Shown here piece by piece: positions 56,131 through 61,356 of a stretch of 64,000 nt of DNA. Below the pieces are notes generated by a model that was given only the letters and a program-made list of their open reading frames with translations, had not been told where the DNA came from and made no database searches. Numbering within the stretch: position 1 is the stretch's first letter; each line of letters starts with the position of its first letter. Source of the stretch: Sandaracinus amylolyticus (lineage in GTDB: Bacteria; Myxococcota_A; Polyangia; Polyangiales; Sandaracinaceae); assembly GCF_000737325.1 (NCBI RefSeq), contig NZ_CP011125.1:3534001-3598000 (forward strand), given 5' to 3'. The position numbers and the translations under genes are program-made.

Positions 56131-58884
56131 TCAGTCGATGACGAGGTGCTCGATCAGCACGCGATCGAGGTCGACGTACGTGGTCCCGTCGTCGATGAGC
56201 GCGCCGGGCTTGATGTGATCGCCCTCGACACGCACGAGCTGATGATCGTGCAGCGCCGCGAGCGCGTTCTCGAGCTTCGGACGCGCGACGCTCTCGCGCA
56301 GCGTGATCTGCCCCGAGAGGTAGCGACGCTGCCCGAGCGCGAGCGCGTTCTTCAGCCACTCCTTCTTGCCGAGCGACGCGACCTCGCCGTTGCGCAGCGC
56401 GCGCACGCTGAGCAGCGCGAGGCGATAGCTCTCGAAGTACGAGCGCAGCATCTCCGCGTAGCGCGCGACCTGCGCGCCGCTCGCGCCGCCGCCGCGACGC
56501 ACCATCGAGCCGACGATCTCGACCTCGCCCGCTGCGCGCATCGAGCCCAGCGCGTCGTCGAAGATCTCGTCGAACTCCGCGTCCGCGCGGTACATGAACT
56601 CGAGCTTGAAGAGGCGCGAGACACGGCGGACGCGATCGCGCAGCGTCTCGAGCTCGGCCTCTCCGTTCATCGCGAGCAGTGCGCTGGAGATGAGCGCGCT
56701 CGGCACGAAGAAGTGGAGGATCGTGTTCTTGTGGTACTCGAGCGCGATCCGGCGCTCCTCGGGGATCTGGTAGATCGGCTCGTCGGGCGGCTCACCGCGC
56801 TTCGGGTCGCCCTTGCCGTCGTCGACCGTCACGACGAGCTTCGCGTCCTCGAAGAGCCGCAGCGCCTCGCTCAGCGTCTCGGGGCGGAAGCGACCCTCGT
56901 CGTCGATGACAGGCTTCGCGATGCGCGCGGCGAGCCGCTCGAGCGTCGCGACCATCGTGCGCGCCTGACGCACCAGCTGATCGTGGGTGATGCCGCGACG
57001 ACGATGCGCCATCAGCGCGGTCGCGCAGAGCGCGGCGGGCGTGACCACCGTCGCGCGGTTGATCTCGTAGGTCACGCGGTGCGCGATGCGCTGCACCAGC
57101 GCGCGTCGCTGCGGCGGCGAGAGCCCGCTCTCGCCGTTCTGCACCGAGGGCGCGCCGCGCGCGCGATCGTTCTTGCCCGCGAGCGCGACCGCTTCGTCGA
57201 CCAGGCCGCGGAACGACATCGTTTCGCCGAACTGCAGGTAGAGCCGCCCGTACTTGCTGCGCAGCACGCGTCCCGTCGCGAGCAGCCCGCCGATGCTCTC
57301 GGGCTGCTTCTCGCCGCCCGACTGCTCGTGCACGTACGACTTCTCCTCGATGATCCGCTCGTAGCCGATCGAGATCGGCACGAACGTGATCTCGCGATCG
57401 CGCAGCTGCAGCGCGGCATCGACGATCATCGAGAGGATCCCGAGCTTCGGCGGCAGCAGCTTGCCGGTGCGCGATCGGCCGCCCTCGACGAAGAGCTCGA
57501 CGTTCCAGCCCTCGACGAGGATCTTGCGGACGTACGCGTCGACGAGCTGCGGATAGAGCTTCTTGCCCTTGAAGCTGCGCTTGATGAAGAACGCTCCGGA
57601 GCGCCGCAGGAAGGGCCCGAGCGGGAAGAACGAGAGGTTGTCGCCCGCGGCGATCAGCGGCGGCGCGAGCCCCTCGCGATAGAGCAGATCGCTCACGACG
57701 AGGTAGTCGACGTGGCTCTTGTGCGAGGGCAGCAGCACGAGCGGCCCCTTGCGCGCGGCCTCGCGCACTCGCTCGAGCCCTTCGCGATCGACGACCATGC
57801 CGTCGTAGATCCGGTTCCACACGACGGTGTCGAGGAACCGATGGAAGAAGTGGACGACGTTGGTGTCCGGCGCCGCGCACAGCTTGTCGAGATCGCGCCG
57901 CGCTTCGCGCTCGATCTCCACGACCTCGCGCTTCGCTTCCTTCGCCGCGTGATCGAGGTGCTTGCGCACGCGCGGGCTGCGCATGAGCTCGTCGACGATG
58001 CGCGTCGACGTCTTCTTCGCGGGCCCGAGCACCAGCGAGCGCTCGCGCTCCATCCGACGCAGCAGCGCGTAGCGGATCGCGTCCGCGGCCTGCGCGTCGG
58101 TCATGTCCTGGTGCTCGTCCAGGAACGCACGGACGTCGAAGGGCTCGCCGCTGCGCAGCAGCGAGTTCTTGTAGTTCGCGAGGAACTGCAGGAACACGCG
58201 GATGCGCCCCGGCCACTCCGCGGGCCCGAAGATCAGATCGATCGCGGAGCGACGCTGCGTGCTCGCGGGGCGCTTCGTCCACACGAACGTCTGGGGCACG
58301 AGCACGATCGGCTTGCTCGTCTTGCGCTGCAGCTCGACGAGCGTGCGGATCAGATCGACCTCCATGTCGTCGCCCTTCGTCGAGCGGGCGAAGAGGCGAC
58401 CGTTTCCCTGGAGGCGCGGCGGGCGACGCAGGAAGAGCAGCGCGCTGTGCTCCCCCTGGAGCGTGTCGATCAGCGCCCGATCGTCGGGGATCTGCTTCTG
58501 CAGGCGCATCCGCCGCGACCCGCGACCGAAGGGCTCGGCGACGAACATCCCGACGTCGTTCGTGAAGCGCACGAGCGGCAGCCCGTGCTTCTTCGTGAGG
58601 AAGTCGAGCGCGAGGAAGTCGAGGAACGAGAGCGAGCGCGCGACGTACACGACCAGGCCGCGCTCGGCCTGCTGCCGCACCGTGGGCTCCCAGCGCTCGT
58701 CGAGCTTGATGTGCGCGAAGAAGCGCTCGTACAGCGAGCGCCACGCGCTGCTCGGCTGGTAGACGACGGGTCGGTACCTATCCTCGCTGGTGCGCGCCGG
58801 AGGGCTCCCGGCGGGCTCCTCGACGGGACCGCGCGGGGGCACGTTCGACGGGCCGACGGCGGCGGACGGAGGCAGCTGGCTCAT
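56131..58884 (-). CDS. plsB: Glycerol-3-phosphate acyltransferase, PlsB type
   Basis: The 917-residue protein transfers a fatty acyl chain to glycerol-3-phosphate, the first step of phospholipid synthesis. Acyltransferase blocks are visible: I in LLPSHKSHVDYLVVSDLLYR (HX4D), II GAFFIKRSF, III VELFVEGGRSRTGKLLPPK and IV TFVPISIGYERIIEEKSYV. Length and order match PlsB (about 800-900) rather than PlsY. The Pro-rich first 35 residues are variable. Residues beyond 600 form the helical C-terminal region (ITHDQLVRQARTMV). ATG at 58884; TAACGT lies about 13 nt upstream. Confidence 0.93.
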   Translation of the reverse strand: MSQLPPSAAVGPSNVPPRGPVEEPAGSPPARTSEDRYRPVVYQPSSAWRSLYERFFAHIKLDERWEPTVRQQAERGLVVYVARSLSFLDFLALDFLTKKHGLPLVRFTNDVGMFVAEPFGRGSRRMRLQKQIPDDRALIDTLQGEHSALLFLRRPPRLQGNGRLFARSTKGDDMEVDLIRTLVELQRKTSKPIVLVPQTFVWTKRPASTQRRSAIDLIFGPAEWPGRIRVFLQFLANYKNSLLRSGEPFDVRAFLDEHQDMTDAQAADAIRYALLRRMERERSLVLGPAKKTSTRIVDELMRSPRVRKHLDHAAKEAKREVVEIEREARRDLDKLCAAPDTNVVHFFHRFLDTVVWNRIYDGMVVDREGLERVREAARKGPLVLLPSHKSHVDYLVVSDLLYREGLAPPLIAAGDNLSFFPLGPFLRRSGAFFIKRSFKGKKLYPQLVDAYVRKILVEGWNVELFVEGGRSRTGKLLPPKLGILSMIVDAALQLRDREITFVPISIGYERIIEEKSYVHEQSGGEKQPESIGGLLATGRVLRSKYGRLYLQFGETMSFRGLVDEAVALAGKNDRARGAPSVQNGESGLSPPQRRALVQRIAHRVTYEINRATVVTPAALCATALMAHRRRGITHDQLVRQARTMVATLERLAARIAKPVIDDEGRFRPETLSEALRLFEDAKLVVTVDDGKGDPKRGEPPDEPIYQIPEERRIALEYHKNTILHFFVPSALISSALLAMNGEAELETLRDRVRRVSRLFKLEFMYRADAEFDEIFDDALGSMRAAGEVEIVGSMVRRGGGASGAQVARYAEMLRSYFESYRLALLSVRALRNGEVASLGKKEWLKNALALGQRRYLSGQITLRESVARPKLENALAALHDHQLVRVEGDHIKPGALIDDGTTYVDLDRVLIEHLVID

Positions 58885-58946
58885 GGTCCAGCGTCCGACG
58901 TTAGCACGCAGTCCGCCGTCGGAAGCCCCGCGCGCCCGGAGGTGTG

Positions 58947-59465
58947 ATGGCGACCACGACAACGAAGACGAAGGGCCTCGTCGCGGCGATCGCGCTCGCG
59001 ATCGGGGCGTGTGGTGGATCGTGCCCGGAGGCACGGACCACGACGGCGACGGCCGGCGGAACGGGCCCGCTCGCGGGCTACGGGTTCCTCGCGGGGACCT
59101 GGGTGGCGGACCACGACGACGGTGCGCGCACGGAGGAGACGTGGACGGTGCCGCGCGGGAGCGTGATGCCGGGCTCGTCCCACACCGAGGCCGCCGACGG
59201 CCGGACGCGCAGCTGGGAGAGCCTCCGGATCGAGCAGCGGGGTGACGCGATCTTCTACGTGGCACTGCCGGTCGGCGCGGACGGAGAGACCTCGTTCGCG
59301 GCGGTGGAGCTCGAGGCCGATCGCGCGGTGTTCGAGAATCCGCAGCACGACTTCCCGCAGCGCATCACGTACCAGCTCGAAGGGCCCGAGATCTTGCGGG
59401 CGACGGTGAGCGATCTCGGCGGCGCGACGCAGACGACCTGGCGCATGAGGCGGGAAGCGCGCTAG
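58947..59465 (+). CDS. Small lipoprotein, DUF6265-like
   Basis: The 172-residue protein has a lipoprotein signal (LAIGACGG) and a single domain starting with YGFLAGTWVADHDDGARTEE, followed by PRGSVMPGSS, AIFYVALPVG, AVELEADRAVFENPQHDFPQ and ends TWRMRREAR. This FLxGxW...ExW...M.G...NPxHDFPQ pattern is that of DUF6265-type lipocalin-like proteins, whose function is unknown. ATG at 58947 (or GTG 58944) lies just behind GGAGGT. It is divergent from plsB with a 62-bp gap. Confidence 0.78.
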   Translation: MATTTTKTKGLVAAIALAIGACGGSCPEARTTTATAGGTGPLAGYGFLAGTWVADHDDGARTEETWTVPRGSVMPGSSHTEAADGRTRSWESLRIEQRGDAIFYVALPVGADGETSFAAVELEADRAVFENPQHDFPQRITYQLEGPEILRATVSDLGGATQTTWRMRREAR

Positions 59466-59546
59466 AAGGAAGGCCTTCGGTCGCGCCGCGCGCACGGCCG
59501 GACGGCGGCTCCGGCCCTGGCGGCTGGGCAGCACGGGCGGCTTCGC

Positions 59547-59575
59547 TTGACACGGCGAGCCGCTCCATCTACATC
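59547..59575 (+). promoter_or_regulatory. Sigma-70 promoter of rplM-rpsI
   Basis: TTGACA (59547-59552) and TACATC (59570-59575) are 17 bp apart, a perfect -35 with a good -10. The transcription start would lie near 59582, about 47 nt before the rplM start codon, and just before the hairpin at 59588. Confidence 0.75.
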
Positions 59576-59587
59576 ACGCGCCCCTTC

Positions 59588-59613
59588 GCGCCCCGACCCG
59601 GGGCGCTTTTTTT
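59588..59613 (+). terminator. Attenuator-like intrinsic terminator in the rplM leader
   Basis: GCGCCCCG (59588-59595) pairs with CGGGGCGC (59599-59606) across an ACC loop and is followed by seven Ts (59607-59613). It is a textbook rho-independent terminator, yet it lies between the rplM promoter and start codon (ATG at 59629). It may attenuate the ribosomal operon, or it may end the upstream lipoprotein transcript. Confidence 0.72.
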
Positions 59614-59628
59614 CGCAGGTTCTCGATC

Positions 59629-60075
59629 ATGCGCCTTCTCCGTGCCCAGCAGACGCACAGCGCCAATCCGGCGGAAGTCAATCGCCGCTGGTTCGTCGTC
59701 GACGCCGAAGGACAGCCCCTCGGCCGAGTCGCCTCGCGCATCGCGGCGGTCCTTCGCGGCAAGCACACGCCGCTGTACACGCCCCACGTCGACACGGGCG
59801 ACTTCGTCGTGGTGATCAACGCCGAGAAGGTGAAGCTCACCGGCGCGAAGCTCGACGACAAGTTCTACTACAAGCACTCGGGCATCCCGGGTGGCTTCCG
59901 CGCCGAGCCGTACCGCAAGCTGCTCGATCGCAAGCCGGAGTTCGCGCTCGAGAAGGCCGTCAAGGGCATGCTCCCGAAGACGCCGCTCGGCCGCAAGATG
60001 CACACGAAGCTGAAGGTCTACGCAGGCCCGACGCATCCGCACGCGGCGCAGAAGCCCGAAGTGCTCAAGTTCTGA
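59629..60075 (+). CDS. rplM: 50S ribosomal protein L13
   Basis: The 148-residue protein is a complete L13: [20 protein letters not shown] near the start, [32 protein letters not shown] and [20 protein letters not shown] with PHAAQKP at the end. It is an early-assembling large-subunit protein. It forms an operon with rpsI, 39 bp downstream. The leader holds a promoter and an attenuator-like hairpin. Confidence 0.97.
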
Positions 60076-60114
60076 TCCCGCTGCTGAAGCTCTGAGAAGG
60101 ACGAGACAGAGACC

Positions 60115-60519
60115 ATGCCCCAGGCGCTCATCCACGGTCGGCACTACGGCACCGGCAAGCGCAAGCGCGCCATCGCGCGCGTGTTCCTCAAGCCCGGCAG
60201 CGGCGACATCACGGTCAATGGCCGCACCCTCGCGGAGTACTTCCCGCGCGAGACCTCGCAGATGATCGCTCGCCAGGCGTTCGAGATCATCGAGAAGATG
60301 AGCGACTACGACGTCACCGCGACGGTCTGCGGCGGCGGCGTGGCGGCCCAGGCGGAAGCGGTGCGCCACGGCATCTCGCGCGCGCTGCTCCACGTCGACG
60401 GTGAGCTCCGCTCGCCGCTCAAGAAGGCCGGCCTCCTCACCCGCGACGCGCGTGAGAAGGAGCGCAAGAAGCCCGGTCAGCCGGGCGCGCGCAAGAAGTT
60501 CCAGTTCAGCAAGCGCTGA
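60115..60519 (+). CDS. rpsI: 30S ribosomal protein S9
   Basis: The 134-residue protein has [55 protein letters not shown] and the basic C-terminal tail [11 protein letters not shown], whose last Arg contacts P-site tRNA in the ribosome. Length is typical. ATG at 60115 follows AGAAGGA in the spacer after rplM. The operon ends in a strong hairpin at 60530-60591. Confidence 0.97.
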
Positions 60520-60529
60520 GCTCCGGACT

Positions 60530-60591
60530 CCGAACCGACGAAGAAGCCCGCGGTGCTCGAGAGAGCGCGCGGGCTTCGTCGCGTTCGGAGC
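60530..60591. terminator. Two-way terminator after rpsI
   Basis: AAGCCCGCG (60544-60552) pairs with CGCGGGCTT (60568-60576); outer segments CCGAAC/GTTCGG and CGACG/CGTCG extend the stem. It fills the 72-bp gap between the rpsI stop and the convergent gene stop at 60592, so it probably serves both. Confidence 0.7.
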
Positions 60592-61356
60592 TCAGCTGGG
60601 GCGCGCGCTGCGCGCGCTCGGATCGATCGCGACCAGACGCGACCAGATCGCGTCCTGCACCATGCGATACGACGCCGCGTCGCGGCCCTCTTCGGGCGAG
60701 GCCTCGCAGAGGCGCGCGGTCGTGAGCGCCATGCGCAGGAAGTCCGGCAGCGCGAGATCGGGGCGCAGCGCGATCTCCGACCAGCGATCGAACGTCTGGG
60801 TGCTCCGTCCGATCCCGAGCTGCTCGGCGACGTTCGCCATCGCGCGCTTGAGGTCGTCGCGCGGCGACCACGGGTTGTCGAGCAGCGCGGGATCGATCGC
60901 GGTCCCGAGGAAGCGCTGGTAGATCGCGCGCCGCGCGAGCTCGTCGCCCGACACCGGGAAGCGGGTCGCGATCCAGATCACGATCGCGGCGAAGAGCGCG
61001 AGCACGCCGAGCACGATCGCGATCGGCACCGCGACGCTGCGCCCGAACGGCATCGGATCGCCCGCGAACATCGCCTGACCCGGCAAGAACGCGAAGAGGA
61101 TCCCGATCCCGAGCAGCCACACCGCGAGGCTCGTCGACCAGCCGCGCAGATAGCCGACGCCGATCGATCGCCAGTCGCGACGCAGCTCGGTCACGCGGAG
61201 ATCGCTCCACGACGTGAGCGCCGAGCCCTCGACCCAGTACGTCCCCTGCGGGAGCAGCGGGAAGCCGAGGAATTGATAGAAGAGCGTCTGCACCGAGCCT
61301 TTGCCGACGCGCGCGATCGAGCCGTAGAAGGCCTCGTACTGCGGGTGGATGAGCAT
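60592..61356 (-). CDS. Membrane protein of unknown function
   Basis: The 254-residue protein (ATG 61356) begins MLIHPQYEAFYGSIARVGKG, has two strong membrane helices (about 84-106, SLAVWLLGIGILFAF, and 118-140, VAVPIAIVLGVLALFAAIVI) and a soluble helical C-terminal half (KRAMANVAEQLGIGRSTQTF). No family is recognised. The frame is open upstream to 61500 but that part is Arg-rich and overlaps the argC promoter side, so the later start is more likely. Confidence 0.65.
   Translation of the reverse strand: MLIHPQYEAFYGSIARVGKGSVQTLFYQFLGFPLLPQGTYWVEGSALTSWSDLRVTELRRDWRSIGVGYLRGWSTSLAVWLLGIGILFAFLPGQAMFAGDPMPFGRSVAVPIAIVLGVLALFAAIVIWIATRFPVSGDELARRAIYQRFLGTAIDPALLDNPWSPRDDLKRAMANVAEQLGIGRSTQTFDRWSEIALRPDLALPDFLRMALTTARLCEASPEEGRDAASYRMVQDAIWSRLVAIDPSARSARPS

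Follow-up and report, generated by a model that had tools for sequence, protein, structure and literature searches.

The window, a stretch of 64,000 nucleotides from the genome of the soil bacterium Sandaracinus amylolyticus, encodes on its forward strand the ribosomal proteins L13 (rplM, 59629-60075; Pfam PF00572, E 1.5e-46) and S9 (rpsI, 60115-60519; Pfam PF00380, E 1.8e-48). Upstream of this operon, and in the same direction as rplM, lies a gene for a DUF6265 protein (58944-59465), and no terminator with a U-run was found between this gene and the rplM promoter. The parts of the leader follow each other in the order promoter (59547-59575), hairpin (59588-59606), a run of seven Ts (T7, 59607-59613) and the ATG of rplM at 59629, with 15 nt between the end of T7 and the start codon. 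At the 3' end of the operon, a 10-bp stem follows rpsI (60543-60577), which, unlike that of the leader, lacks a U-run.

The promoter proposed in the initial annotation, TTGACA and TACATC separated by 17 nt, is present on the forward strand, with the -35 element at 59547-59552 and the -10 element at 59570-59575, and the same layout was found in relatives. A consensus scan does not pick it up because its -10 element lacks the final T and ends in C. Just past the -10 element lies a C-rich discriminator, GCGCCCC (59578-59584, forward strand), and the spacing makes one of the C residues at 59582-59584 the likely start site of rplM transcription. For comparison, 183 genomes of the order were searched, 173 of which hold rplM; 107 leaders were fetched and 103 of them, from 72 genera, were used, those of G087, G088, G103 and G114 being dropped because their loci, cut short by a contig end, were not placed by the extraction. 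Promoter layout is conserved among these 103 leaders, with an exact TTGACA in 85 and the 17-nt spacer in 91, although the promoter finder scores TA at -10 and requires five of six matches at -35, which makes the counts for these elements partly circular. The motif GCNCCC, which played no part in selecting the leaders and whose count is thus independent of the finder, stands no more than 12 nt from the -10 element in 66 of the 103 leaders and occurs in 8 of 409 control windows. TTGACA is also found in 39 of 40 rplM leaders from other orders of the class. In some of these, such as L276, L277 and L285, only about 10 nt separate the -10 element from the likely start codon of rplM, and the mRNA is perhaps nearly leaderless; several leaders of those orders being this short, rplM as such needs no leader hairpin.

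The same arrangement, TTGAC-N-TANNNN followed by GCNCCC, has 14 matches in the chromosome of S. amylolyticus (loci L188-L201) compared with a single one for the reversed pattern. The genes behind them, named by reading the DNA and its translations and not by a family search, include tRNA genes, a likely rRNA operon, rpsT, rplM, rplS, rpmG, genes for YceD-like and CarD-like proteins, GAPDH and aspartokinase, and others. A GC-rich discriminator after the -10 element is therefore common to rplM and stable-RNA genes, and since this layout precedes tRNA, likely rRNA and ribosomal protein genes, the C-rich start is a property of the promoter class. Stringent-type promoters carry a GCGCC discriminator, the stringent discriminator being GCGCCNCC. 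We take the class of the rplM promoter to be of this type, the likeness lying in the GCGCCCC just past the -10 element. The list of 14 matches also offers a ready set of candidate stringently controlled promoters in this genome.

The hairpin reported in the initial annotation, a perfect 8-bp GC stem followed by seven Ts at 59588-59613 and ending 15 nt before rplM, was found exactly as described. On the forward strand, its 5' arm (GCGCCCCG, 59588-59595) and 3' arm (CGGGGCGC, 59599-59606) enclose the loop ACC (59596-59598), and T7 abuts the stem directly. With eight of eight GC pairs and a 3-nt loop, the stem lies within the range expected of intrinsic terminators (about 5-9 bp with a short loop). 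Its energy is -16.1 kcal/mol, a stability equalled by none of 200 shuffles, and no terminator-like site other than the hairpin with T7 lies between 59400 and 59640 (shuffles contain 0.1 on average). Between T7 and the gene, AGG at 59617-59619 (forward strand), 9 nt before the ATG, may serve as a weak Shine-Dalgarno sequence.

This combination is rare in the genome. Within a 464-kb sample, comprising the window plus 20 further stretches, each of 20 kb, T7 occurs once with both strands counted, in the rplM leader; no other stem of 7 bp or longer in the sample is followed by six or more Ts in eight positions. A genome-wide pattern of T6 after three G/C yielded 28 matches, some sites being missed because the printed stretch had to begin and end with a letter other than T. 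At four places among these matches the T-run is abutted by a perfect stem of 7 bp or more: at rplM, at two sites of a palindromic repeat of 12 bp and at one stem of 14 bp. So few sites indicate that a hairpin followed by a U-run is uncommon in this genome. The repeated palindrome has a stem of about 12 bp preceded by A6 and followed by T6; it is terminator-like on both strands and was seen at L224 and L225 (G000:C1:3038774-3038870), L231 (4354740) and L241-L243 (8988891-8988999).

The genus is represented by three genomes: that of the window (G000), G001 and G002. The initial annotation had proposed conservation of the stem pairing as a check, and this held within the genus, where the pairing is kept in all three genomes, but not outside it, as detailed below. 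A strong U-run is found in two of the three, following the stem without a gap in G000 and G002. Over the 82 positions from TTGACA to the base before the ATG, G002 and the window differ twice, both times in the loop; the two genomes differ at 3 of 447 positions in rplM, at 23 of the 405 of rpsI and at 10 of 81 in the stretch immediately upstream. The tract from the promoter to the end of rplM (59531-60075) holds 5 differences versus 6-12% in the flanks and rpsI, and the three changes in rplM are all at third positions, so the tract possibly derives from recombination. The likeness of G000 and G002 was for this reason set aside as proof of selection on the stem, the whole tract being little diverged.

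G001, whose L13 is 79% identical to that of the window, holds at the same place a stem of different letters, GCACCCA-TTT-TGGGTGC, in which, column by column, four of the eight pairs are changed on both sides, three are unchanged and the outermost is lost, while sliding the pairing by 1-3 columns yields three such double changes at best. The loop varies throughout the genus (ACC, GCT and TTT), and the stem of G001 is followed only by CTTTCT, a poor terminator tail. With three sequences, paired conservation of the hairpin within the genus is suggestive, not conclusive.

G001 also bears on the relation of the hairpin to the gene upstream. The DUF6265 gene lies upstream of rplM in G000 and G002 and is absent in G001, where the neighbour of rplM is divergent and resembles, when compared by eye, the minus-strand protein encoded at 56131-59265 of the window; the presence of the gene between rplM and this divergent neighbour in only two of the three genomes suggests a recent insertion or loss. 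A terminator of the DUF6265 gene was rejected as the main reading, since the hairpin is kept in G001, which has no codirectional gene upstream. The same observation makes it improbable that the hairpin is an insulator stopping transcripts that arrive from the DUF6265 gene and letting fresh polymerase from the rplM promoter pass, a role with which the codirectional gene and the missing U-run terminator behind it would otherwise agree.

Beyond the genus, a hairpin with a T-run (at least 4 bp and at least four Ts in six) was found in 6 of 16 rplM leaders and in none of 61 leaders of same-class promoters from the same genomes (p 3e-5), three of the six being congeners and some of the control stretches reaching into genes. 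The control started from 77 rows, 5 of rplM and 72 others, of which 61 of the latter were kept after leaving out 7 rows of G002 that nearly repeat those of G000, 2 duplicates shared by G007 and G009, 1 repeated tRNA row of G000 and, from G014, 1 row that is apparently coding sequence. A genus-level Fisher test is not relied on, as it counted 13 genera where those 16 genomes represent 12. Across the 72 genera of the order, forward leaders exceed reversed ones at score 9 (9 versus 2, p 0.03), and the counts are 4 versus 1 at score 10 and 11 versus 8, not significant, at score 8.

At this last score, the hairpin with a T-run occurs in 15 of the 103 leaders of the order, most being without it, and in 0 of 40 leaders from the other orders of the class. 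An order-wide conserved hairpin was rejected, given a weak fold signal (mean z -0.49 over 72 genera) and score-8 counts like those of reversed leaders, and so was conservation across the class. Look-alikes with the same order of parts stand in G015 (GGGCG TTTTTT AGGAG), G034 (CCCC TTC GGGG TTTTT) and G010 (CCCGG ATCAG CCGGG TTTT), and in several leaders of the order a T-run lies close to the start codon with no stem beside it. On the sequences compared, hairpin plus U-run is specific to the genus, with scattered look-alikes in the order.

Leaders of this kind form hairpins easily in a GC-rich genome, as the mean fold signal illustrates, and the little-diverged tract of G000 and G002 weakens one of the two comparisons within the genus. 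A chance structure devoid of function is nevertheless improbable, in view of the four doubly changed pairs in G001, more than any slid pairing reaches, and of a hairpin with T7 that is unique in 464 kb. The element is real and rare, and probably functional.

Neither the gap between T7 and the ATG nor the bases just before hold a TA-containing -10 element, so that all rplM transcripts are expected to run through the hairpin, which makes readthrough obligatory; the terminator-like site thus lies between promoter and gene, in the path of all transcripts of the gene. The RNA from the likely start to the end of the U-run would measure 30-32 nt, with 4-6 nt before the stem, too short to accommodate any ligand-binding fold, leader peptide or antiterminator. 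A search of the leader for an antiterminator returned a single alternative pairing (59578-59584 with 59600-59606), which uses the same 3' arm, so the leader does not have the build of a classical attenuator. A cmscan of 58900-60700 against Rfam, up to E 5, returned no ribosomal leader and no L13 leader family.

These results speak against the possible sensing of L13 or S9 levels suggested in the initial annotation. In an autogenous leader, L13 or S9 would bind the hairpin and promote termination or block translation. Known L13 leaders of E. coli, Firmicutes and Bacteroidetes precede the same operon, rplM-rpsI, and are structurally distinct from each other, so that another could exist; they are structured and protein-binding (PMC7247131), whereas here there is one simple hairpin of changing sequence with no Rfam match. 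Likewise, the rplJL attenuator of B. subtilis shares with the rplM leader a terminator (putative in rplM) ahead of ribosomal protein genes, but it works through an anti-antiterminator, an antiterminator and binding of L10(L12)4 (PMC4538822), none of which fits the rplM leader. Among three congeners the loop varies and so do four of the eight stem pairs, leaving no fixed recognition sequence, no hairpin is conserved across the order, and no alternative structure fits in about 32 nt. Autogenous control through this hairpin is accordingly improbable.

The view of the initial annotation that most early transcripts would stop at the hairpin is difficult to maintain. The rplM gene gives a single match in the genome and is presumably essential, and readthrough must therefore be substantial. 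The preferred reading, at about even chances, is a leaky, promoter-proximal intrinsic terminator in the rplM-rpsI leader, similar to GraL, in which RNA polymerase would start at 59582-59584 from the stringent-type promoter and make about 30-32 nt, the 8-bp hairpin would fold, and in a fraction of rounds the polymerase would stop in the U7 run, the remaining polymerases reading through into rplM-rpsI. The leader, with no dedicated RNA sensor, would in this way set a ceiling on the L13/S9 mRNA, either fixed or dependent on elongation, as GraL does for greA.

GraL, in the leader of E. coli greA, is a terminator 19 nt from the start site that stops about two thirds of the transcripts of an expressed gene (PMC6829880). 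It resembles the rplM leader in placing an intrinsic terminator (putative in rplM) very near the start site (19 nt precede it in GraL, 4-6 nt in the rplM leader), between the promoter and the start codon of a housekeeping gene, in having no clear sensor RNA and in producing mRNA by readthrough (PMC6829880). It differs in concerning another gene in another phylum, in depending on GreA and in acting also in trans (PMC6829880); termination in rplM is predicted from sequence. A further parallel is IspZ, a 60-81-nt terminated leader of E. coli ispU, which also has a short stem (6 bp) followed by a U-run (eight U) in a 5' UTR; unlike the rplM leader, it is a longer RNA with a role as an sRNA and does not belong to a ribosomal operon (PMC7815308). 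The rplM element probably belongs to this known kind, the promoter-proximal leader terminators.

Hairpins can protect the 5' end of mRNA, and S1 lands on U-rich RNA. The main rival to termination combines both: a hairpin 4-6 nt from the 5' end would guard the message against 5'-end-dependent decay, and U7 upstream of AGG would be a landing site for the ribosome (S1), termination being negligible. This alternative has roughly one chance in four to our minds, and it is favoured by the weak U-run of G001, which keeps the hairpin while the tail is weakened to CTTTCT. It also agrees with the T-runs away from stems in leaders of the order and with others elsewhere in the genome that closely precede likely start codons and have no strong stem, for instance at L229, L234 and L237. 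Termination is favoured by T7, which abuts the perfect GC stem without a gap, as a terminator requires, and is unique in the 464 kb, where this is the sole such element; by the stem pairing kept in all three congeners, with four of eight pairs doubly changed in G001; by the retention of the hairpin in that genome despite the lack of a codirectional upstream gene; by the hairpin with a T-run in 6 of 16 rplM leaders against 0 of 61 same-class promoters, those of other ribosomal genes included; and by the example of GraL. Against it stand the poor tail of G001 and the patchy occurrence in the order, with none in other orders, and a polymerase no more than 32 nt from its start may terminate inefficiently. 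Premature termination is still the most likely effect of the hairpin and U-run, and the hairpin probably lowers or tunes the amount of rplM message.

A bolder and doubtful form of the termination reading, to which we give a somewhat smaller chance than to the stabilising role, is an attenuator without a sensor, in which the state of the young polymerase at a stringent-type promoter would decide what share of starts becomes L13/S9 mRNA. No ligand-binding fold or leader peptide fits an RNA of about 30 nt, and the inputs would be the elongation rate, NTP supply, retained sigma, and CarD-type or Nus factors. Such a device would have arisen within one myxobacterial genus, similar hairpins having appeared separately in a few other genera of the order. 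A limited literature search found no report of a promoter-proximal leader terminator for rplM in this group.

If the hairpin does not terminate transcription, it offers a useful caution to anyone predicting terminators in GC-rich genomes. If it does, it would be a very compact natural leader terminator before a ribosomal operon, in a genome almost without hairpins followed by U-runs; it would pose the question of how a polymerase still in its first 32 nt comes to stop or to continue, and it would show control of ribosomal protein synthesis without a sensing RNA.
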